DNA from: Actinoalloteichus caeruleus DSM 43889
Lineage (GTDB): Bacteria; Actinomycetota; Actinomycetes; Mycobacteriales; Pseudonocardiaceae
NCBI RefSeq assembly: GCF_000429185.2
Contig: NZ_AUBJ02000001.1
Coordinates: 5,332,001-5,396,000, forward strand
Length of the DNA stretch: 64,000 nucleotides
Direction: 5' to 3'
Made by a program: the position numbers and the translations under genes. Under the pieces are notes generated by a model. That model did no database searches, was not told where the DNA came from, and worked only from the letters and a program-made list of their open reading frames with translations. This document shows positions 7,798 through 21,457 of the stretch, in pieces. The stretch's first letter is position 1. Every line of letters starts with the position of its first letter.

Positions 7798-8841
7798 GTG
7801 CGGGTCCCACCGTTCGTGACCGCCGTGCTCGGCACCGCGCTCGCGGTGTCCCTCACGGCCTGTGGTTCGAACTCGGACTACCTGCCGACCCGGGCCGAGG
7901 CCGAGGACCTGGGTGAGGAGAGCCAGCAGGTCGCCGAGGAACTCGCGGCCGAGCTGGGCATCCCGGACGTCTCCGGTGAGTCGGACGACCTGTACGTCTT
8001 CCTGCCCAAGTCGTTGGACAACCCGTACTGGGACGACGCCAGGGCCGGGATGGAGGACGCTGCGGAACGGCTCGGGGTCCGGGCGGAGTTCGTCGGCCCC
8101 CAGACCACCGACGTCGGCCAGCAGGTGCAGATGTTCGAGGCCGCCCTCGCCCGGCAGCCCAAGGGCATCGCGATCTCGCCGAACGACCCGGCGTCCGTCC
8201 TGGGCACCATCGCCACCGCGCGGGACATGGGCATCGAGGTCATCGCCTGGGACTCGCCCGTGCCCGACAGCGAGGCTCGTGGCTACATCGGGACCGACAA
8301 CACCAACGCCGGGCGGACCTTCGGTGAGCAGCTGCTGGAGCAGATCGGCGGGGAGGGCGAGATCGCCGTGATCGTCGGCTCGCTCGGCGCGGTGAACAGC
8401 CAGCAGCGGCTGACCGGGTTGCGCGAGGTCGTCGAGGCCGACCCCGACGTGGAGATCGTCGCGATCGAGGAGTCGGGCGACGCCATCGCCGAGGCGACCA
8501 GCAAGACCGAGGCGATCCTGGCCGCGCACCCCGACGTCGCGGCGATCGTCGGCGTCAACGGTGGCGACGCGCCCGGAGCCGCGACCGCCCTCCAGCAGAC
8601 GGGGCGGTGCGGCGACGTGCTGGTCGCGGGCTTCGACGCGATCCCCCAGGCCAGGGACCTGATGCGCAACGACTGCATCCAGCTGCTCGTCTCCCAGCGG
8701 CCCTACGGGATGACGGCGGCGGCCCTCCAACTGCTGGTCGCGATGGCCCAGGACGCGGACGTGGACGAGACCGAGCTGGACACCGGCGTCGTCGCCATCA
8801 CCAAGGAGACGCTCCCCGACTTCGAGCGGACCATCTCGTGA
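7798..8841 (+). CDS. Sugar ABC transporter substrate-binding lipoprotein (ribose/rhamnose type)
   Basis: Extracytoplasmic binding protein of the periplasmic-binding-protein type I-like sugar family (RbsB/RhaS-like), 347 residues. The start is GTG at 7798, with AAGGGA 7 nt upstream. The signal sequence ends in the lipobox LTAC (Cys22). The mature protein has family features: the FLPKSLDNPYWDD entry segment, repeated alpha/beta units, the IAISPNDPAS loop, and the conserved GFDAIPQARDLM hinge segment. Its stop codon overlaps the ATPase start (GTGA). Possible ligands are pentoses, rhamnose or fucose. The fucose-type catabolic operon is about 4 kb away on the other strand, so a deoxyhexose ligand is possible but not shown. 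Confidence 0.92.
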   Translation: MRVPPFVTAVLGTALAVSLTACGSNSDYLPTRAEAEDLGEESQQVAEELAAELGIPDVSGESDDLYVFLPKSLDNPYWDDARAGMEDAAERLGVRAEFVGPQTTDVGQQVQMFEAALARQPKGIAISPNDPASVLGTIATARDMGIEVIAWDSPVPDSEARGYIGTDNTNAGRTFGEQLLEQIGGEGEIAVIVGSLGAVNSQQRLTGLREVVEADPDVEIVAIEESGDAIAEATSKTEAILAAHPDVAAIVGVNGGDAPGAATALQQTGRCGDVLVAGFDAIPQARDLMRNDCIQLLVSQRPYGMTAAALQLLVAMAQDADVDETELDTGVVAITKETLPDFERTIS

Positions 8842-10391
8842 GCGCGGCACCCGAGGCGGAACCGCCCACGGACGACCCACCGGCCCCCGGCGTCGAACCC
8901 CTGGTGCGGATGACCGGGATCGTGAAGACCTACCCGGGCGTGCGCGCCCTCGACTCGGTGGACCTGGAGGTCCGGCCCGGCGAGGTGATGGGCCTGGTCG
9001 GTGAGAACGGGGCCGGGAAGTCCACCCTGCTCAAGGTGCTCGCCGGCGTGGTGAGCCCCGACGAGGGCGAGGTGCTCGTCGAGGGGCGTCCCGTCCGGAT
9101 GAGCGGCCCCCGGGACGCCCAGCGGCTGGGGCTGGCGGTGATCCACCAGGAACTCACCCTCGCCCCGCACCTCTCCGTCGCCGAGAACATCCTGGTCGCC
9201 GCCGAGCCGACCCGGTTCGGGATGCTCGACCGCCGGGAGATGGAACGGCGGACCGAGGCGGCGCTGTCCGAGCTGGGCATCCAGCTCGACCCGTGGGTCG
9301 AGGTGGAACGGCTGTCCCTGGCCAGGCGGCAACTCGTCGAGGTCGCCCGCGCGCTGGCCGCGAAGGCACGGCTCATCGTCATGGACGAACCGACCTCGGC
9401 ACTCACCGAGGACGAGGTGGACCGGCTCCTCGCGGTCGTCAGGAGGCTGCGGGACTCCGGCGTCTCGATCGTGTACGTGAGCCACCGGATGCGGGAGATC
9501 TTCGAGGTCTGCGACCGCATCACCGTGCTGCGGGACGGGCGGCACACCGGTCTGTCGCGCGCGGACGACACCGACCCGGACGCCCTCGTCGCCAGGATGG
9601 TCGGCCGGGAGATCACCCAGCTCTACGGGGAGCGGTCCGACCAGGCCCGGGACGAGGTCGTGCTCGAGGTCCGCAACCTCTCCTCCGGGGATCGGGTGCG
9701 TGACGTCTCCCTGGCGGTGCGCGCCGGGGAGATCGTCGGCCTGGCCGGCCTGGTGGGCTCGGGGCGGACCGAGACCGCGCGGGCCGTCTTCGGCGCCGAC
9801 CCCCACCAGGGTGAGATCCTGCTGCGGGGCCGGCCGGTGCGCTTCGGCCACCCGAAGGAGGCCCTGGCGGAGGGGGTCTGCTACCTCTCCGAGGACCGCA
9901 AGGCCACCGGGCTCTTCCTGGAGATGTCGGTCCGGCGCAACATCGCCGTGACGGTCCCGAGGACGATCGCGCCGAAGGGGTGGTTCCGGCCTCGGGCGGA
10001 ACGCGACGTGGCCGACAGGTTCCGCACGTCGTTGCGGATCGCGTGCCCCAGCGTCGACTCCCTCGTCGGAGGGCTCTCCGGCGGGAACCAGCAGAAGGTC
10101 GCGCTGGCCAAGTGGCTGGCGACCGAGCCATCGGTCCTCCTGCTCGACGAGCCGACCCGGGGAGTCGACGTCGGGGCGAAGGCGGAGATCTACCGGATCA
10201 TCCGGGAACTCGCTGCGGCCGGCGTCGCGGTCCTGATGATCTCCAGCGAGCTACCCGAGGTGATCGGGATGAGTGACCGGATCGTGGTGCTCTCCGCCGG
10301 ACGGACGGCGGGCGAGCTGACCGCGGACGAGGCCACGGAGGAAGCCATCGTGGCGCTGGCCACCGGAATCGGCACCCCGGCGACGGGCTGA
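8838..10391 (+). CDS. Sugar ABC transporter ATPase (RbsA/RhaT type, double domain)
   Basis: Cytoplasmic ATPase with two fused nucleotide-binding domains, 517 residues, the usual length for RbsA/MglA-type subunits. The first domain has the Walker A motif GENGAGKST (55-63), an LSLARRQ signature and a Walker B ending MDEPTSAL. The second has the degenerate P-loop typical of this subfamily (GLAGLVGSGRTE), the signature LSGGNQQK and Walker B LLLDEPTRGVD. The GTG start overlaps the binding-protein stop by 4 nt. It energises the permease encoded 12 nt downstream. Confidence 0.94.
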   Translation: MSAAPEAEPPTDDPPAPGVEPLVRMTGIVKTYPGVRALDSVDLEVRPGEVMGLVGENGAGKSTLLKVLAGVVSPDEGEVLVEGRPVRMSGPRDAQRLGLAVIHQELTLAPHLSVAENILVAAEPTRFGMLDRREMERRTEAALSELGIQLDPWVEVERLSLARRQLVEVARALAAKARLIVMDEPTSALTEDEVDRLLAVVRRLRDSGVSIVYVSHRMREIFEVCDRITVLRDGRHTGLSRADDTDPDALVARMVGREITQLYGERSDQARDEVVLEVRNLSSGDRVRDVSLAVRAGEIVGLAGLVGSGRTETARAVFGADPHQGEILLRGRPVRFGHPKEALAEGVCYLSEDRKATGLFLEMSVRRNIAVTVPRTIAPKGWFRPRAERDVADRFRTSLRIACPSVDSLVGGLSGGNQQKVALAKWLATEPSVLLLDEPTRGVDVGAKAEIYRIIRELAAAGVAVLMISSELPEVIGMSDRIVVLSAGRTAGELTADEATEEAIVALATGIGTPATG

Positions 10392-10403
10392 GGAGCGAAC
10401 ACC

Positions 10404-11447
10404 ATGTCCACGACCACGACGCCCACCGCCGACCCGGACCGGACCGGCTCCTCCGGCGCCAGCACGCGCCGAACCGACTCGCCGTGGCTGCGGCCCTTCC
10501 GGGGCAGGGAGTCGGGGCTGCTGCTGGTGGTGCTGGGGATCCTGGCCTTCCTGGCGATCAGGACCGACACCTTCGTCACCGTCGACAACCTGCTCGTGGT
10601 GGCCAGGCAGGCCGCCCTCGTCGCGATCATCGCGGTGGGCATGACCTTCGTGATCGCCACCGGCGGCATCGACCTCTCGGTGGGCTCCGTCGTCGCGCTG
10701 ACCTCGGTGGCGACCGGGTTCTGGGTGATCTCGGCGGACCTCCCCTACATCGTCGCGATCCCGCTGTCCCTGGCCACCGGTCTGGCCTGCGGGCTGCTCA
10801 ACGGCGCCCTGATCGTGCTCACGAAGGTCCCGCCCTTCATCATCACCCTGGGCATGTTGGGCATCGCCCGCGGCGTGGCCCTGGGCTTGACCAGCGGTTC
10901 CACCCAGACGGGCTTCGCTCCGCCCTTCCTGGGCATCGGGCAGGGGTCCTGGTTGGGGCTTCCCGTGCCGGTGTGGGTGGCGCTGGTGGTCGCGGTCGTG
11001 GCGCACCTGGTCCTGACCAGGACGACGATCGGGCGGCACGTCTACTTCACCGGGTCGAACGAACCCGCCGCGGTCCTCTCCGGGATCCGGGTCCAACGGG
11101 TCAAGATGTTCGTCTACGTGGTCGCGGGCTCGCTGGCCGCCCTGTCGAGCCTGTTGGAGACCGCGCGGCTGTCGGTGGCCCAGCCCAGCACCGGAGTCGG
11201 TTACGAGTTGACCGCGATCGGTGCCGTCGTCATCGGCGGCGCGAGCCTGTTCGGCGGCCGAGGAACGGTGCTCGGCGCGGTGCTCGGCGCGGTGCTGCTC
11301 AGCCTGATCACCAACGGCCTGATCGCCCTCCAGGTGAGCGCCTACTGGCAGCAGGCGATCCAGGGAGCGGTGATCATCCTCGCGGTGGCGCTCAACGAGT
11401 GGCGGGGCCGGCGGGCCGTCGCCGCCGGGCGGGCGGGGGACACGTAG
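10404..11447 (+). CDS. Sugar ABC transporter permease (RbsC type)
   Basis: Integral membrane permease of the ribose/xylose branch, 347 residues, with 8-10 predicted helices. Conserved RbsC-type segments include GMTFVIATGGIDLSVGS near residue 80, and the cytoplasmic GIRVQRVKMFVYV loop, which is followed by a GxxGGASLFGGRG-like segment. An N-terminal extension of about 45 residues is Ser/Thr/Asp-rich. GAGGAGCG lies before the ATG. It completes a three-gene importer. No kinase or isomerase is attached to the operon to reveal the sugar. Confidence 0.93.
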   Translation: MSTTTTPTADPDRTGSSGASTRRTDSPWLRPFRGRESGLLLVVLGILAFLAIRTDTFVTVDNLLVVARQAALVAIIAVGMTFVIATGGIDLSVGSVVALTSVATGFWVISADLPYIVAIPLSLATGLACGLLNGALIVLTKVPPFIITLGMLGIARGVALGLTSGSTQTGFAPPFLGIGQGSWLGLPVPVWVALVVAVVAHLVLTRTTIGRHVYFTGSNEPAAVLSGIRVQRVKMFVYVVAGSLAALSSLLETARLSVAQPSTGVGYELTAIGAVVIGGASLFGGRGTVLGAVLGAVLLSLITNGLIALQVSAYWQQAIQGAVIILAVALNEWRGRRAVAAGRAGDT

Positions 11448-15130: not shown

Positions 15131-17152
15131 TCAGCCCGCCCCCAGCCCGTAGACCCGCCGCGCCGTCCCCCCGAACACCGCCGCGCGTTCGGCCGCGCCC
15201 AACTCCCGGGTGAGCTCCTCCGCGGTCGCCACGACCGTGCCGTACTCCGCCGCGAGCAGGCAGACCGGCCAGTCCGAACCGAACAGCACCCGGTGCGGTC
15301 CGAAGGCGTCCAGGGCGACCGTGACGTACGGGCGGAGGTCCTCCACCGACCACCGCTCGTGATCGGCCTCCGTGACCAGCCCGGAGAGCTTGCAGCAGAC
15401 GTTGGGCGAGCGGGCGAGGCGGCGGAGGTCCGACTCCCAGTCCCGCACCGCGCCACGGGCGATCGCCGGCTTGGACAGGTGGTCCAGCACGAAGGTCAGG
15501 TCCGGCGACGCGGAGACGGTCTCGACGGCGGCCGGGAGCTGCCGGGGCAGGGTGAGCAGGTCGAAGACCAGGCCCGCGTCGGCCACGGCCCGCAGCCCCC
15601 GCCGCACCTCCGGCCGGCACAGCCACCGCTCGTCGACCTCGTCCTGGACTCCGTGGCGGACCCCGACCAACCGGCGGCCACCCGGCAGGCCCCGGAGCCG
15701 TTCCAGCTCGTCCGCCACACCACCGCCGGCCAGGTCGACCCAGCCGACCACGCCGGCCACGAGGTCGTCCGAGTCGGCCAGGGCCAGCAGCTCCTCGGTC
15801 TCGCCCGGGTCCGGAACTGTCTGCACGAGCACCGTCGCGGTCACACCGCGCGCCTCGGCGACGGGCCGGAGGTCCCCCAGGGTGAAGTCCCGGTGGATCG
15901 CCGCCATCCCGACCGGGTCGATCCACGGCTGCGGGCGGTCGCCCAGCCGCCACACGTGGTGGTGGGCGTCCACCCGACCCGCCGGCGGGTCCGCCGGGGG
16001 AGCGGCGCGCTCCGCCTCGCCGTGGCGGCCACCTCGTCCCGGGCCGTCCACGACGGGCTCGCCGGGTCGTGCGCCCGCCTCGGTCGTTCCGGAGCCGAGC
16101 ACCGTGTGCCGGGCTTCCCCGAGACCCGGCCACGGCCGGGCGGCGGCCTCCTCCCCCGGGCCGGGCGCCTCCGCCGCCTCCCCGGACGCGATGGCGTCCA
16201 ACTCGGCCCACAGCCCGGCCGGGACAGGGGTGGCGAGCAGGTCCACGTTCTCCCGCACCTCCCGAGCCGATCGCATGCCGACCAGGACGCTGCTCACGGC
16301 GGGGTCGCGGAGCGGGAACCGGAGCGCCGCCGCGACGAGGGGCACGTCCCAGCGCCGGCACGCCGCCGCCAGCCGTCGCGCGCGGCGCAGCACCGGTTCG
16401 GGGGCCGGTGCGTAGTCGAACGTCGCACCCGGCCTGGGGTCGGCGAGGATGCCGCTGTTGAACACCCCGCCCACGATCACGTCGACTCCGCGCCGGGCGC
16501 AGGCGGGCAGCAGGTCGGTCCCGGCCGTGCGGTCCAGGAGGCTGTAGCGGCCGGCGACGAGCACCGCGTCGATGTCGGTCTCGCTGACGAACCGGCTGAG
16601 CAGCGGGGTGTGGTTCATCCCCACCCCGATGGCCCGTACGACCCCCTCGGACCGCAACCGCTCCAGCTCCGGGTAGGCGTGGTCGAGGGCGTCCCGGGCG
16701 AAGTCGTCGGGGTCGTGGATGAGAACCAGGTCGAAGCGGTCCAGGCCGGTCCGTTCGAGGCTCTCGGTGAGCGAGCGGCGCACCCCGGTCGCGGAGTAGT
16801 CGCGTACCCGGCGCAGCGCGGGCTCCCCGGCGAACATGGACGTCTCCCGGGCACCGCCGTCCGCGACCAGCAGGCGACCCACCTTGGTGGACACCGCGAA
16901 CTCGTGACGCGGCAGATCGCTGAGGAACGCGCCGAGCCGGCGTTCGGCCCGGCCCGCGCCGTAGTGGGGCGCGACGTCGAAGTAGCGGAGCCCGCACCGC
17001 CAGGCGGTCTCGAGCGTCCGCTCCGCCTCCTCGTCGGACACCTCCGCGTAGAGCCCGCCCAGCGCCGCCGCCCCGAAACCGACCCGGCCGATCCCCGAGC
17101 TCCGGAGCCGCCAGCCTCCCCGGCTGGCCGTCCTCGCCTCACCACCCGTCAC
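15131..17152 (-). CDS. Fusion protein: aldo-keto reductase (L-fucose dehydrogenase type) + amidohydrolase lactonase
   Basis: One 673-residue polypeptide with two enzyme domains in a single uninterrupted frame. Residues about 20-325 are an aldo-keto reductase of the D-threo-aldose/L-fucose 1-dehydrogenase group, with the full tetrad Asp59, Tyr64, Lys90 and His146. Residues about 393-673 are an amidohydrolase-2 domain like L-fuconolactone hydrolases: HxH metal ligands in DAHHHVW (397/399), LDHLSKP, and the late FGSDWPVC aspartate. A Gly/Pro/Glu-rich linker of about 65 residues joins them. The two activities are consecutive: aldose to aldonolactone, then to aldonate. The GTG start overlaps the SDR stop (GTGA), placing it last in the operon. 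These steps are usually carried by separate proteins. Substrate (L-fucose, or a related sugar) is inferred. Confidence 0.9.
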   Translation of the reverse strand: MTGGEARTASRGGWRLRSSGIGRVGFGAAALGGLYAEVSDEEAERTLETAWRCGLRYFDVAPHYGAGRAERRLGAFLSDLPRHEFAVSTKVGRLLVADGGARETSMFAGEPALRRVRDYSATGVRRSLTESLERTGLDRFDLVLIHDPDDFARDALDHAYPELERLRSEGVVRAIGVGMNHTPLLSRFVSETDIDAVLVAGRYSLLDRTAGTDLLPACARRGVDVIVGGVFNSGILADPRPGATFDYAPAPEPVLRRARRLAAACRRWDVPLVAAALRFPLRDPAVSSVLVGMRSAREVRENVDLLATPVPAGLWAELDAIASGEAAEAPGPGEEAAARPWPGLGEARHTVLGSGTTEAGARPGEPVVDGPGRGGRHGEAERAAPPADPPAGRVDAHHHVWRLGDRPQPWIDPVGMAAIHRDFTLGDLRPVAEARGVTATVLVQTVPDPGETEELLALADSDDLVAGVVGWVDLAGGGVADELERLRGLPGGRRLVGVRHGVQDEVDERWLCRPEVRRGLRAVADAGLVFDLLTLPRQLPAAVETVSASPDLTFVLDHLSKPAIARGAVRDWESDLRRLARSPNVCCKLSGLVTEADHERWSVEDLRPYVTVALDAFGPHRVLFGSDWPVCLLAAEYGTVVATAEELTRELGAAERAAVFGGTARRVYGLGAG

Positions 17153-17931
17153 CGGGAGCCGCCCCTGACGCGGGGGCGTGGACGCAGGCCCGCCATCCCA
17201 CCGTCCACCTCCAGGGCCGTCCCGGTGGTGGAACCCGCGAGTGGGCTGGCCAGTGACGCGACGGCGAAGGCCACCTCGTCCGCCGACACGAGCCGGCCCA
17301 GTGGTTGCCGAGCCTCCAGGGCCGCCCGTTCCGCCACCGGGTCCTCGGCCGCGTCGAGCAGCCGAGCCACCCACGGGGTGTCGACGGTCCCCGGGTTCAC
17401 GCAGTTCACCCGGACCCCGTCCGCGAGGTGATCGACGGCCATCGCCCGCGTCAGCGCGAGGACGGCGCCCTTCGAGGCCGAGTACAGCGCGCGGTGCGGG
17501 AGCCCGGCCGTCGCCGCGATCGAGCAGGTGTTCACGATCGACGCGGCGGGGGAGTGGCGCAGGTGGGGGAGCGCCGCCCGGGAGACACGGGCGACCCCGG
17601 TCACGTTGACGTCGAACACCCGTGCCCACTCCGCGTCCGGGTTGTCCTCGACCGTGCCGGCCGCGCCGATCCCGGCGTTGTTCACGAGCACGTCCAGCCG
17701 GTCGTGGCGGGCCACGACCGAGGTCACCGCGGCCCGCACCGACTCGTCGTCGGTGACGTCGGCGTGCACGGTCGTCAGGGGTTCCGGTGCGCGGCCCGCC
17801 CTGTCGAGCGCGATCACGGTGGCGCCCCGGGCGGCGAGGAGCTGGCCCGTCGCCAGCCCGATGCCGGAGACCCCTCCGGTCACCACGGCCACCAGTCCGG
17901 TGAAGTCCTGCGGGAACGTCGACTGGGACAT
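17149..17931 (-). CDS. SDR-family dehydrogenase (deoxyhexonate pathway)
   Basis: Classical short-chain dehydrogenase/reductase, 260 residues. The NAD(P)-binding motif is TGGVSGIG (18-25), NNAG is at 84-87, and the catalytic residues are Ser137, Tyr150 and Lys154 (YSASK). ALDR after the second strand suggests NAD preference (an acidic residue at that position). In fucose oxidation loci such an enzyme serves as L-fucose dehydrogenase or as 2-keto-3-deoxy-L-fuconate dehydrogenase. Because an aldo-keto reductase already covers the first oxidation here, the later step is more likely. It sits between the mutarotase gene (1 nt apart) and the fusion gene (4-nt overlap). Confidence 0.9.
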   Translation of the reverse strand: MSQSTFPQDFTGLVAVVTGGVSGIGLATGQLLAARGATVIALDRAGRAPEPLTTVHADVTDDESVRAAVTSVVARHDRLDVLVNNAGIGAAGTVEDNPDAEWARVFDVNVTGVARVSRAALPHLRHSPAASIVNTCSIAATAGLPHRALYSASKGAVLALTRAMAVDHLADGVRVNCVNPGTVDTPWVARLLDAAEDPVAERAALEARQPLGRLVSADEVAFAVASLASPLAGSTTGTALEVDGGMAGLRPRPRVRGGSR

Positions 17932-17932
17932 C

Positions 17933-18259
17933 TCACTCCTCCATCAGGAAAACCTGTTCGGCCGGCGCCCACCACTCGCCGGGTCCCGCGCTCGCCAGCG
18001 GACGCTGGCAGGGGTCGGTCAGCCGCCACCACCGCTGGGTGACCGGGTCCTCGGCCATCGACGCCAGATCGGCCGCCAGGTCCGTCCCGTGGTACTCGAA
18101 ATAGGAGAACAGCAGGTCGTCCCGCAGGTGGATCGAGTAGTTGCGGATGTTGGCGTGCCGGATCCGATCGAGTACGGCGGGCCAGACCTCCTCGTGCAGG
18201 CGGCGGTACTCGGCGAGCATCTCGGGGCGAACCCGGATGACCTGGGCGACTCGTCGCAT
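17933..18259 (-). CDS. rhaM: L-rhamnose/L-fucose mutarotase (RhaM family)
   Basis: Small dimeric alpha/beta protein of 108 residues in the RhaM family (DUF718), which interconverts alpha and beta anomers of 6-deoxyhexoses. The active-site Tyr18 and His22 of E. coli RhaM are conserved at the same positions here (AEYRRLHEEVWP), as is the downstream QRWW pair. The ATG at 18259 has GGAGG 5 nt upstream. It is the first gene of a three-gene minus-strand operon with an SDR and the dehydrogenase-lactonase fusion, which suggests it prepares the beta-anomer for oxidation. Fucose or rhamnose as substrate cannot be separated from sequence alone. Confidence 0.9.
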   Translation of the reverse strand: MRRVAQVIRVRPEMLAEYRRLHEEVWPAVLDRIRHANIRNYSIHLRDDLLFSYFEYHGTDLAADLASMAEDPVTQRWWRLTDPCQRPLASAGPGEWWAPAEQVFLMEE

Positions 18260-19318
18260 CCGCACCTCCGGTGGCCCGCCCGACGTCACGGGCGGGCTGC
18301 TCGATCGTGATGGCGAGGCGGCCCCCGGCCCTCGGAGCCCGATCGAACCCGGGACAGCGGGGACCAGCGACCGTCGTGGTTCGACGCTACAAGCCGTGTC
18401 GAGAGACATCCGGTGTCTGTCCGGCCTTGGCCAGGACCGGACACCCGCCGATCAGGGGCCGGACCCGTGGTGGACCCGGGATCAGGTGTTCCAGCTCGCC
18501 AGTGGAAGGGGGCAAAGACATCTGATGAGTGGGTGGGGGTCCGGTGGCGGGGTAGGGCAGGGAGGTCCTGGGCGGGTGGGCAGGGACGCGGACGTGCCGG
18601 GGCGGAGGCCGCAGGGGACGGCAATGCTCATTCGAATGTGAGAGGAAAGTGAGGAAAGTGAGCGTGCCGGCATTCGCCCTTTTCGTCAGCGGTGCGCTGG
18701 TCACGTGACCGCCACGCCACCTGGGAACACCGCTCGTGACGAACTCCCCGATCACGGGACTCCGCGTCCTCATCGGGGCCGACCGCGTTCGGCGGGCCGC
18801 GCCCGGGATCCGGAACGAAAACAGCGGTGTGGTCGGTGGGAACCCGACCACACCAGCGGCCACTCCGGGTGGTTCCCCGGCGGGCTTCCCCCTATTCGGA
18901 TCCCGGTTTCCGCGGGCCCGGCGGCACGGCGCCGTTCTCCGATGGACCGTTCGGCGGAGCTCGACAATGTCGCCGGATGCGAATTGATCGCGCGCACGAC
19001 GAGGTCGCGTGCCCGGGCGCGTTCGCGGTCCGGGCACGCGACCAGTAGGGGTGGAGAACGACTCGGTGGCGGAAGCGAATCCGCGTTGGCCGCACCGGGA
19101 CGGTCACCGGTCCGCCGAAAAGAGGGCGGGTGGGGAAGTTGCCGGCATCAGCTCGGCGATGTCGGGTGCTGGCGCCTTTTCGCTGGTCGGGCTCGCGTGG
19201 CCGTGTCCAGGAGCCGCGCATTGCCCCCGGTCCGTCCGGGGGACTTCCGGCATTCCGGGCGGATCCGATCTCCGGTCCGGGCTGGCGAGTTCGGACGGGT
19301 GGTGCCGGCGTCGGATCG
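18260..19318. other. Gene-poor region upstream of the fucose-type operon
   Basis: This 1.06 kb has no credible gene on either strand; the long frames present have random composition. Features seen: the GACA-N5-TGTC palindrome at 18405-18417 with an adjacent stem-loop (18418-18443), the palindrome-like CTCATTCGAATGTGAG at 18627-18642, and a directly repeated GTGAGGAAA motif at about 18640-18660. Confidence 0.5.
18405..18443. promoter_or_regulatory. Inverted repeats upstream of the mutarotase operon
   Basis: An imperfect palindrome GACATCCGGTGTC (18405-18417) is followed directly by a stem-loop with arms TGTCCGG and CCGGACA (18418-18443). They lie about 150-180 nt upstream of the mutarotase ATG on the minus strand. 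Position and symmetry fit an operator for a local sugar-responsive regulator, but no regulator gene is adjacent. Confidence 0.35.
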
Positions 19319-19699
19319 TCAGGGCCGGCGGGGTTCGGGTATGCGCGGCCATTCCGGAAGCCACAACGCGCTGGGCGGGGACGTGATCCGGTAAGGCGAG
19401 TTCCGTTCCCCCGGATCGGGGAGGCACAGCAGCTCGATCGCCGTGTCCGCGAAAGTGCCCTCGTACTTCCACACCACCCTTCCCGCGGGCCGGTCACGGC
19501 CGTCTCCGCGTTCGTCCCGGAACCGGCAGGCCGTGGCGTCGTCCTCGCCCCGGATATGAATCCAGTCGATGTAGCCCGGCCAGCCAAAGGACGCCATCAG
19601 GGTGTGGGGCACCTCGGCATCTCCCGGCGCCGGCATGAACAGGAAGCCACGGTCCATCATTCGTTTCAGCAGGTCATCCACGGTGGGCATCCTTTCCAT
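19319..19699 (-). CDS. Hypothetical protein, 126 residues
   Basis: I do not recognise this protein. It starts MERMPTVDDLLKRMMDRGF and is a small soluble protein with an amphipathic N-terminal helix, a central Trp-rich segment (SFGWPGYIDWIHIRGED), and a C-terminal Pro/Trp-rich segment. Its amino-acid composition is protein-like, with third-position G/C bias, unlike the surrounding DNA. Starts are possible at 19699 (GGAAGG 3 nt upstream) or 19690 (GGAAAGG directly upstream). It stands alone in a 3.2-kb gene-poor region. There are no membrane segments or signal peptide. No function is proposed. Confidence 0.65.
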   Translation of the reverse strand: MERMPTVDDLLKRMMDRGFLFMPAPGDAEVPHTLMASFGWPGYIDWIHIRGEDDATACRFRDERGDGRDRPAGRVVWKYEGTFADTAIELLCLPDPGERNSPYRITSPPSALWLPEWPRIPEPRRP

Positions 19700-21457
19700 C
19701 CGCCTTCCCGCGTGGCGCGACCCGACGGCTGTCCCGATCTGTGCACCAATCCGCCGCAGGGCTGCTGACCAGCGGGTTCGGTGCTCTCGGATGGTTGTTG
19801 ACCGTCGTGTTCGGCCGTTGTCCAGTGCCTGAAGACGGCAGCACGGAACCAATTCGGGAGGAAGTCCGCCCCCGAAAACGATCTTTTCCTTTTCGTCGTG
19901 GTTGGCGAACTCGGCCTGTTCGAACCGGTCGCCGTGCTGTCATCCGATGTTGCTTCGGTACGCGCCCACCCGCCCCGCGAACCCTCCCCGGCGGCGGCTC
20001 GCGGCGGTGCCTTTGTGACCGAAGCCGGGGTGTGGAACGTGTCGGACAGTGCGCTGATAACGCATCGTGAGCGCGTGATAGCGAGAATAGCACGGAAGTT
20101 CTTATTCGCACACAACACGTAAGAGGTCGGGTGTCAGCTAGTCCGAAGTCACTCGCCGGGGGCGGGCAAACCATGCCGTGAACAGTGCGATTAACCGGAA
20201 ACCCGTGGCCCGCTCGCGAGGTGCTCGACAGTGTTCCGTCCGCGCCGCAAACGCCACCGCCCGCCGTTCTCCCGATAAAAAGCGTCCGCCGGCACCCGCA
20301 GTGGGAGCCCCCGGCTCGTCGGCAATCCCGCGCTATCCGGGCCCGTGGTCGACCGGGCGGACCAGAACGGCGTGTGCCACCCGGTGGAATGGGGGTGCGG
20401 TGAAACGGGCGCCGTTTGGGATGGTGTGCGCTGCCGCCCAGAGCCCTGCCGACCGGGGGTCCCGTCCCGAGAATGGGTCGCCGCTCGGTGGGTCGAAAGG
20501 TGCGGACCGCGACGGCGACCGGTCCGACCCCCATCAGATCCAGAACCGTCCATCACGAAATGCGCTGGGCGAAGCGGACATCGTCACCTGGGCCGCGAAC
20601 CGGGCCGCCGCCTGCTCCCTTCGCTTTGCTGGCCGGCATCCCGGCACGGCCCGGCGAGTGCGGGAAAACCCACATCGACTCCGGGGCCTCCCCAGCCCTG
20701 GGCACGGAATTCGGCCGAGGATCAACCCGCCCGGGCTCCTCGGCCCCGACCGGGGCCGGTGGATTCGGTGACGCTCCTGGCCCGGGTGTGCTCGTTGTCC
20801 TCTCCCGGCTCGAGGAGAACACGCGATCGACGAGCTCACCCGGATCCGCATCGGCGTCAACGGGTGCGCGGGGAAAAGCGTGGTGGCGGAATAGGGGGCG
20901 GCCGAATGGGAGCGGCCAGCACCAGGTGGTTCCAGTCGGACGTCGTCGAACGAGGGGCCCCGTCCGACGAGAACGCTGTCGGAGGGGGCTGGTCCCCCGC
21001 AGGGTGGCGGGGCGGGCCACGGGGCGGGGTCGAGGGGAGGGGCGGGCCCCGGCGAGGGGCCCCGGACCTCCCGGCCCCCGGGCGGACCGTGCGGGAACAG
21101 GTCCTGTGGAGGAGCCGCGACAGGACCGGCGACCCGGGAGGTCAGCTCGCGGGCTGCTGGGGCGCCGGCGAGCCAGGATGTGCCGGCGGCGTGGCGCTCC
21201 CCGCGAGTGTGGATCTCGTGGTTCCGCCCCGAGGGCGTTCCCACCGGCACCGGGCTGGCCGTGTCGGCCGGCCTGGGACGAGCGGATGACCGTCGGCGGC
21301 GGAGGGGGCACCCGGGGAGCCGATCCGCCACGACCCCGGCACCCGGTTGAGCTCGCATCGGAGCGGCCACCGGTGCGCCGTCCCTGGCGCGGTCGGGGGC
21401 GAGGACCGGCAGCGTCCCCGACCGGACACGGCCACCGGGACCGCCGAGGCGCGGAGG
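19700..21457. other. Long gene-poor region (1.76 kb)
   Basis: No open frame here looks like a protein on either strand. Part of it (about 20040-20120 and 20260-20290) is clearly less GC-rich than the rest of the window, for example around GATAACGCATCGTGAGCG and the CCCGATAAAAAGCG stretch. It may hold decayed genes, an unannotated RNA, or promoter sequences for the small hypothetical gene on the minus strand. I see no tRNA-like fold. Confidence 0.5.

Follow-up and report, generated by a model that had tools for sequence, protein, structure and literature searches.

The bacterial non-phosphorylating pathway of L-fucose catabolism includes the L-fucose 1-dehydrogenase FucA and the L-fucono-1,5-lactonase FucB, as described in PMC11199699. 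In the genome of Actinoalloteichus caeruleus DSM 43889 (G000) a single gene encodes an aldo-keto reductase (AKR) and an amidohydrolase that are predicted to catalyze successive reactions like those of FucA and FucB, and it shares with them the kinds of neighboring genes; unlike FucA/FucB, they form one polypeptide rather than two, and the dehydratase and hydrolase genes are located elsewhere in the genome. In fold alignment the lactonase half shares 40% identity with 4dlf, a COG3618 enzyme, and the nearest solved relatives of the AKR half, by sequence as well as by fold (Foldseek), are L-galactose dehydrogenases (viz. 8scc, 7ezi, 7smi, 9w6y, and 7lh6), which are 24–30% identical to it in fold alignments and whose PDB chains of 324–362 residues are without a lactonase domain. 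Adjacent genes homologous to the two halves (AKR 47–64%, amidohydrolase 56–67% identity), often abutting, are found in actinobacteria and proteobacteria and also on alphaproteobacterial plasmids; unlike the fusion, these are separate genes.

Dehydrogenase–lactonase fusions are a kind already known from eukaryotes, where G6PD::6PGL belongs to unrelated protein families and acts, within the pentose phosphate pathway of the cytosol or ER, on a phosphorylated sugar; the present fusion is a genuine, if modest, new variation on this kind. The eukaryotic fusions resemble it in that one chain carries a sugar dehydrogenase together with the lactonase for the following step, and they arose several times (metazoan H6PD, apicomplexans, Giardia/Trichomonas), according to PMC3148214. 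The Giardia enzyme is reported (PMC8399836) to release its lactone without channeling.

The fusion gene lies in an operon within the window, the whole stretch of 64,000 nucleotides that was analyzed. The features of this operon are:

15131..17152, minus strand: AKR–lactonase fusion gene, 673 aa, GTG start (translation and Pfam; also present in G023, the other genome of the genus)
16190..17086, minus strand: AKR domain, residues 23–321, tetrad D59/Y64/K90/H146 (Pfam and residue check)
15983..16180, minus strand: disordered linker, residues 325–390 (pLDDT below 50; dN/dS)
15143..15973, minus strand: Amidohydrolase-2 (COG3618-type lactonase) domain, residues 394–670, H397/H399/H500/H558/D627 (Pfam; closest solved structure 4dlf)
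17149..17931, minus strand: SDR dehydrogenase, 260 aa, candidate 2-keto-3-deoxy-L-fuconate 4-dehydrogenase (Pfam; 94% identical in G023)
17933..18259, minus strand: mutarotase (PF05336), whose likely ATG start, taken from the G023 alignment, is residue 51 of a longer frame (17933–18409)

Translation of the fusion gene yields 673 residues and a single terminal stop, and the uninterrupted frame with a full AKR and a full amidohydrolase-2 domain that the original prediction described is thus confirmed. The match to Aldo_ket_red (PF00248) spans residues 23–321 and profile positions 1–289 of 291 (E 1.1e-43; 149.9 bits, which passes the curated cut-off of 24), and that to Amidohydro_2 spans residues 394–670 and the complete profile (1–289 of 289; E 4.6e-52). 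The tetrad and the HxH pair (H397/H399) are found at the positions claimed for them. Residues D59, Y64, K90, and H146, which we take to be the Asp-Tyr-Lys-His catalytic tetrad of the AKRs, are identical in 16 of 16 separate AKR sequences in an alignment (A2) where about ten C-terminal residues of the AKR rows are still misplaced. Residues H397, H399, H500, H558, and D627, the conserved His/Asp site residues of the lactonase half, each have an identical counterpart in 4dlf. This structure is the closest solved one by sequence (E 7.6e-51), and it also ranks first in a Foldseek search with the model of the fusion (E 4.3e-24, TMt 0.90, 40% identity). The top NCBIfam model for this half is NF052480 (L-fucono-1,5-lactonase), with 240.4 bits against a cut-off of 400, and because the score falls below this value we make no claim of equivalog-level membership. 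The AlphaFold2 model, built from a 28-row alignment in which 4 rows represent the two fusions in two lengths, has a mean pLDDT of 83.5 and a pTM of 0.51 and contains two confident domains; residues 325–390 fall below a pLDDT of 50, and the disordered linker of about 65 residues that had been proposed is accepted on this basis. A single copy of the fusion gene is present in the genome, where three other matches are weak and cover the AKR only. The fusion of two enzymes predicted to catalyze consecutive steps is supported, and the protein probably combines L-fucose 1-dehydrogenase and L-fucono-1,5-lactonase activities, its two domains being connected by a flexible tether.

Two genomes of the genus were compared and the fusion is found in both; the copy in G023, a fragmented assembly of 890 contigs, is 85% identical and has no internal stop. 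A search for further proteins of AKR plus amidohydrolase-2 architecture, which had been proposed as a check, yielded this one and none else among the samples searched. Within a family sample of 150 genomes, a stop-free span of both halves occurs, among the matches listed, only in G000 and G023; a match in G141 covers both halves, but a stop separates two genes. No fusion beyond that of G000 was found in the order sample (101 genomes, E 1e-130 or better) or the class sample (148 genomes, E 1e-120 or better), both of which include G000 itself and whose thresholds miss fusions in distant relatives. The gene neighborhoods of relatives were checked in 113 loci, viz. the best 80 of at least 409 relatives together with loci from the genome itself and the family sample, a set that is biased to close relatives and contains repeats (the halves of L058 and L089 are identical, and L041 and L042 have the same coordinates and identities). 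Neither half was found in 3 of these loci, one half only in 11, both in separate frames in 97, and both in one frame in 2; the fusion hence accounts for 2/110 and the two-gene state for 97/110 of the loci with either half. Between the AKR stop and the lactonase core of the 97 separate-gene loci there are at most 15 nt in 29 and 16–200 nt in 12 (200 nt or less in 41/97), 201–520 nt in 50, and a greater distance in 6. One of the 50 is that of S. scabiei, in which a small rhaM-family gene (L035:11035-11346) lies between the AKR and lactonase genes; it has no match to a solved mutarotase at E 0.01 and would belong to another mutarotase subfamily serving the pathway. A tblastn search of plasmids matched 902 records, and 25 of the 40 matches listed are annotated with an aldo/keto reductase and, as a distinct feature, an amidohydrolase, 2 with an AKR only, 7 with neither, and 6 are unannotated. 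The two AKR-only plasmids have no fused gene, since their AKR genes are of ordinary length and the lactonase region is unannotated. Separate genes are likewise seen on a Marivivens plasmid (AKR–RbsD/FucU–amidohydrolase, near SDR, dehydratase, and FAH genes) and a Croceicoccus plasmid (enolase-type gene, mutarotase, and AKR). No published account of this fusion was found in a literature searched mostly without subscription journals.

Trees of the two halves were based on 48 rows from the 93 loci with both halves, including every family locus and a sample of the others. Both halves of the two fused species pair in these trees with 100% SH-aLRT. The rows nearest to the fusion by path are L087, L013, L010, and L091 in the AKR tree, and L010, L089/L058, and L096 in the lactonase tree, where the fusion groups at 88 with L087, L010, L013, and L018; the rows of L089 (family member G017) are identical to those of L058 (Gandjariella) in both trees. 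Because the lactonase core of L087, L010, L013, L018, and L091 starts 0–3 nt past the AKR stop, the linker has no counterpart in these loci. Two neighboring genes that were transcribed together would have fused in an ancestor of the genus when the AKR lost its stop and a spacer of about 66 residues was acquired.

The stretch upstream of the operon (window positions about 18400–20829) aligns with G023 at 82% identity; the 2487 aligned bases contain 67 indels, 59 of which have a length indivisible by three. The single frame tested there (19319–19852) gave no Pfam match, and there was no Rfam match within window positions 14–24 kb. A terminator-like 12-pair stem followed by a T-rich tail is located in this stretch at 18825–18855 on the minus strand (one found against 0.6 expected from shuffles). 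The idea that the linker is a remnant of the gene lying between the AKR and lactonase genes in S. scabiei was rejected: when the two linkers were compared by blastx with the ORFs (100 aa or longer) in the loci of relatives, one marginal match (E 0.18) lay outside the fused species, and blastn gave scattered short matches (best E 2.9e-7) that were taken for composition effects.

Comparison of the two fused genes indicates that the AKR domain (dN/dS 0.12) and the lactonase domain (0.29) are constrained. Over residues 321–391, which include the linker, dN is 0.360 and dS 0.359, giving a dN/dS of about 1, and the substitutions are evenly distributed over codon positions; its amino acids thus appear to drift neutrally while the frame keeps register. 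The linker DNA has diverged by about 27%, yet it is in frame in both species. If the upstream stretch is assumed to be noncoding, its indel rate leads one to expect about 5 frame-breaking indels in the 210 bases of the linker, where we observe one 3-base gap (MAFFT) or indels of 4 and 1 that cancel each other (BLAST). As frame-breaking indels are fewer than this rate predicts, the comparison suggests, without proving, selection for keeping both domains in one frame. The open frame of the linker taken alone is weak evidence, a fraction of 0.64 of random sequences with equal composition being open by chance as well. The latter value, together with the neutral drift of the linker and the fact that nearly all relatives examined manage unfused, speaks for the fusion being a neutral accident in which the domains act as if apart and linkage brings no benefit, with free lactonase also possible via an internal start or linker cleavage. 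The conserved register at about 27% divergence, with none (MAFFT) or two cancelling (BLAST) of the predicted frame-breaking indels, argues against such an accident, as does the lack of a convincing ribosome-binding site (judged by eye) ahead of the lactonase core; we put its probability somewhat short of even. This alternative is about benefit and overlaps with the preferred reading of a bifunctional L-fucose enzyme, which is about chemistry. That the two domains form a coupled unit, in which the tether raises flux or curbs leakage of lactone beyond what a separate pair would achieve and selection keeps the spacer frame while its sequence drifts, is a tentative proposal to which we assign rather low odds.

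The operon has the order mutarotase–SDR–fusion, and the predicted co-occurrence of a mutarotase and an SDR with the fusion is borne out by Pfam. The GTG start of the fusion gene and the SDR stop share 4 bases (GTGA, 17149–17152), as they do in G023. The nearest solved relative of the mutarotase is the L-fucose mutarotase 7byu (E 1.2e-37), the L-rhamnose mutarotase 2qlx following at E 4.1e-10; the protein passes Pfam rhaM and scores 45.7 bits, below the cut-off of 99.6, against TIGR02625 (L-rhamnose mutarotase). The best solved match of the SDR is 4dqx (E 5e-50, vs. 8.8e-36 for 8y4j), which is not the known L-KDF dehydrogenase. Of the residues given for L-2-keto-3-deoxyfuconate 4-dehydrogenase in PMC11199699 (R148, T183, R192, R214, and W252), three have counterparts in R147, T182, and R208 of the SDR, whereas leucine stands at the place of R192, with an arginine one position earlier, and methionine replaces W252. 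The SDR may be a dehydrogenase of 2-keto-3-deoxy-L-fuconate that acts in a later step rather than a member of the front end. The mutarotase–dehydrogenase–lactonase front end envisaged in the original prediction would in this respect be modified; its pathway outline stands, with L-fucose as the most likely substrate.

Neither a dehydratase nor a hydrolase gene was found at the fusion locus among the window ORFs or by domain search. Their absence, which had been pointed out previously, is true of the locus; candidates are present elsewhere in the genome, as is a fucosidase:

C1:2143584-2144903: L-fuconate dehydratase homologue (667 bits to 1yey; 98% identical in G023)
C1:5906454-5907071: FAH-family hydrolase candidate (homology)
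C1:171258-172190: GH29 fucosidase (homology)

Each step of the non-phosphorylating L-fucose pathway therefore has a homologue in the genome (viz. mutarotase, fusion, dehydratase, SDR, and FAH hydrolase). The dehydratase homologue is 3.2 Mb from the fusion locus and its top NCBIfam models are talarate/galactarate and arabinonate dehydratases, at scores below their cut-offs, and the FAH protein reaches 269 bits against a cut-off of 500; because several curated cut-offs are not reached, the pathway assignments are homology calls. Among related loci (the best 80 of at least 409; all counts are lower bounds owing to contig ends), an L-fuconate dehydratase homologue of 69–75% identity is present in 62/80, two further loci with homologues of 29 and 32% identity being left out of this count, an SDR homologue in 63/80, an FAH hydrolase in 22/80, and the window's kind of mutarotase in 1/80. 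The last is that of Saccharopolyspora shandongensis (L056), where FAH–mutarotase–SDR–AKR–lactonase occur as separate genes, with an order matching that of the fusion operon. Among candidate substrates L-fucose has the best support, since the mutarotase is nearest to 7byu, the lactonase to 4dlf and the L-fucono-1,5-lactonase model, and L-fuconate dehydratase homologues occur near 62/80 related loci and in the genome; the pathway reading is right in outline. Points that speak against the bifunctional L-fucose reading are the scores of the lactonase half and the FAH protein below their cut-offs, the L-galactose dehydrogenases as closest solved relatives of the AKR half, the top models of the dehydratase homologue and its distance from the fusion, the rarity of this kind of mutarotase at related loci, and the best solved match of the SDR. 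The same evidence, together with the GH29 fucosidase, makes it unlikely that the fused enzyme acts mainly on D-arabinose, L-galactose, or some other sugar that shares this ring configuration, L-fucose being secondary, although the AKR half is nearest to L-galactose dehydrogenases, the operon is without a dehydratase gene, and D-arabinose, L-fucose, and L-galactose are all substrates of a related P. mimosarum AKR (PMC6336799). L-rhamnose as the main substrate was rejected, the mutarotase and the dehydratase both being closer to L-fucose enzymes.

Other genes of sugar metabolism were also noted. The dehydratase homologue adjoins a PL11 rhamnogalacturonan lyase (L129:7582-10947; C1 about 2143.6–2146.9 kb), a possible hint that the sugar derives from plant cell walls. 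The enolase superfamily has ten matches above cut-off in this 6 Mb genome, several of them glucarate- or galactonate-dehydratase-like, and sugar-acid catabolism therefore looks rich for its size. A ribose-type sugar ABC transporter (binding protein, ATPase, and permease) is encoded at window positions 7810–11447 on the plus strand, opposite to the operon and not adjacent to it, and might import the sugar; PMC11378808 describes a related subfamily of transporters next to fucose genes. An IclR search of the genome gave nine matches and was uninformative.

For the bifunctional L-fucose enzyme we propose the following sequence of events. The co-encoded mutarotase would supply the L-fucose anomer, which the N-terminal AKR would convert into L-fucono-1,5-lactone by NAD(P)+-dependent oxidation at C1, and the C-terminal COG3618-type domain would hydrolyze this lactone to L-fuconate. 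The later steps would be carried out by the candidate L-fuconate dehydratase and FAH-family hydrolase in trans and by the SDR from the operon. The tether most likely fixes a 1:1 stoichiometry, holds the hydrolase near the source of the lactone, and pulls the oxidation forward, the lactone probably traveling through solution. The direct hand-over of the lactone from the AKR site to the lactonase site without release, which the original prediction proposed, would suit predicted consecutive reactions in one chain and a reactive intermediate (pathway as in PMC11199699); it is nevertheless very improbable in view of the disordered tether of about 66 residues, a model (pTM 0.51) in which no interface between the domains is indicated, and the reported release of lactone by the Giardia fusion (PMC8399836). 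An assembly or sequencing artifact that erased a stop or frameshift between two genes, the usual state at 97/110 loci, is rejected with near certainty because G023 has the same single frame with linker DNA about 27% different, which largely supports the absence of a stop or frameshift, and the genome itself is one contig of 6.04 Mb rated 99.84% complete.

The fusion provides independent gene-fusion support for the view that the neighboring AKR and COG3618 genes of many bacteria act in succession. A coupled unit, if real, would set beside the eukaryotic G6PD::6PGL fusions an equivalent from bacterial sugar catabolism. Because fused and unfused states exist within one family, the advantage of linking a sugar dehydrogenase with its lactonase becomes testable, both on the natural versions and by splitting the linker.
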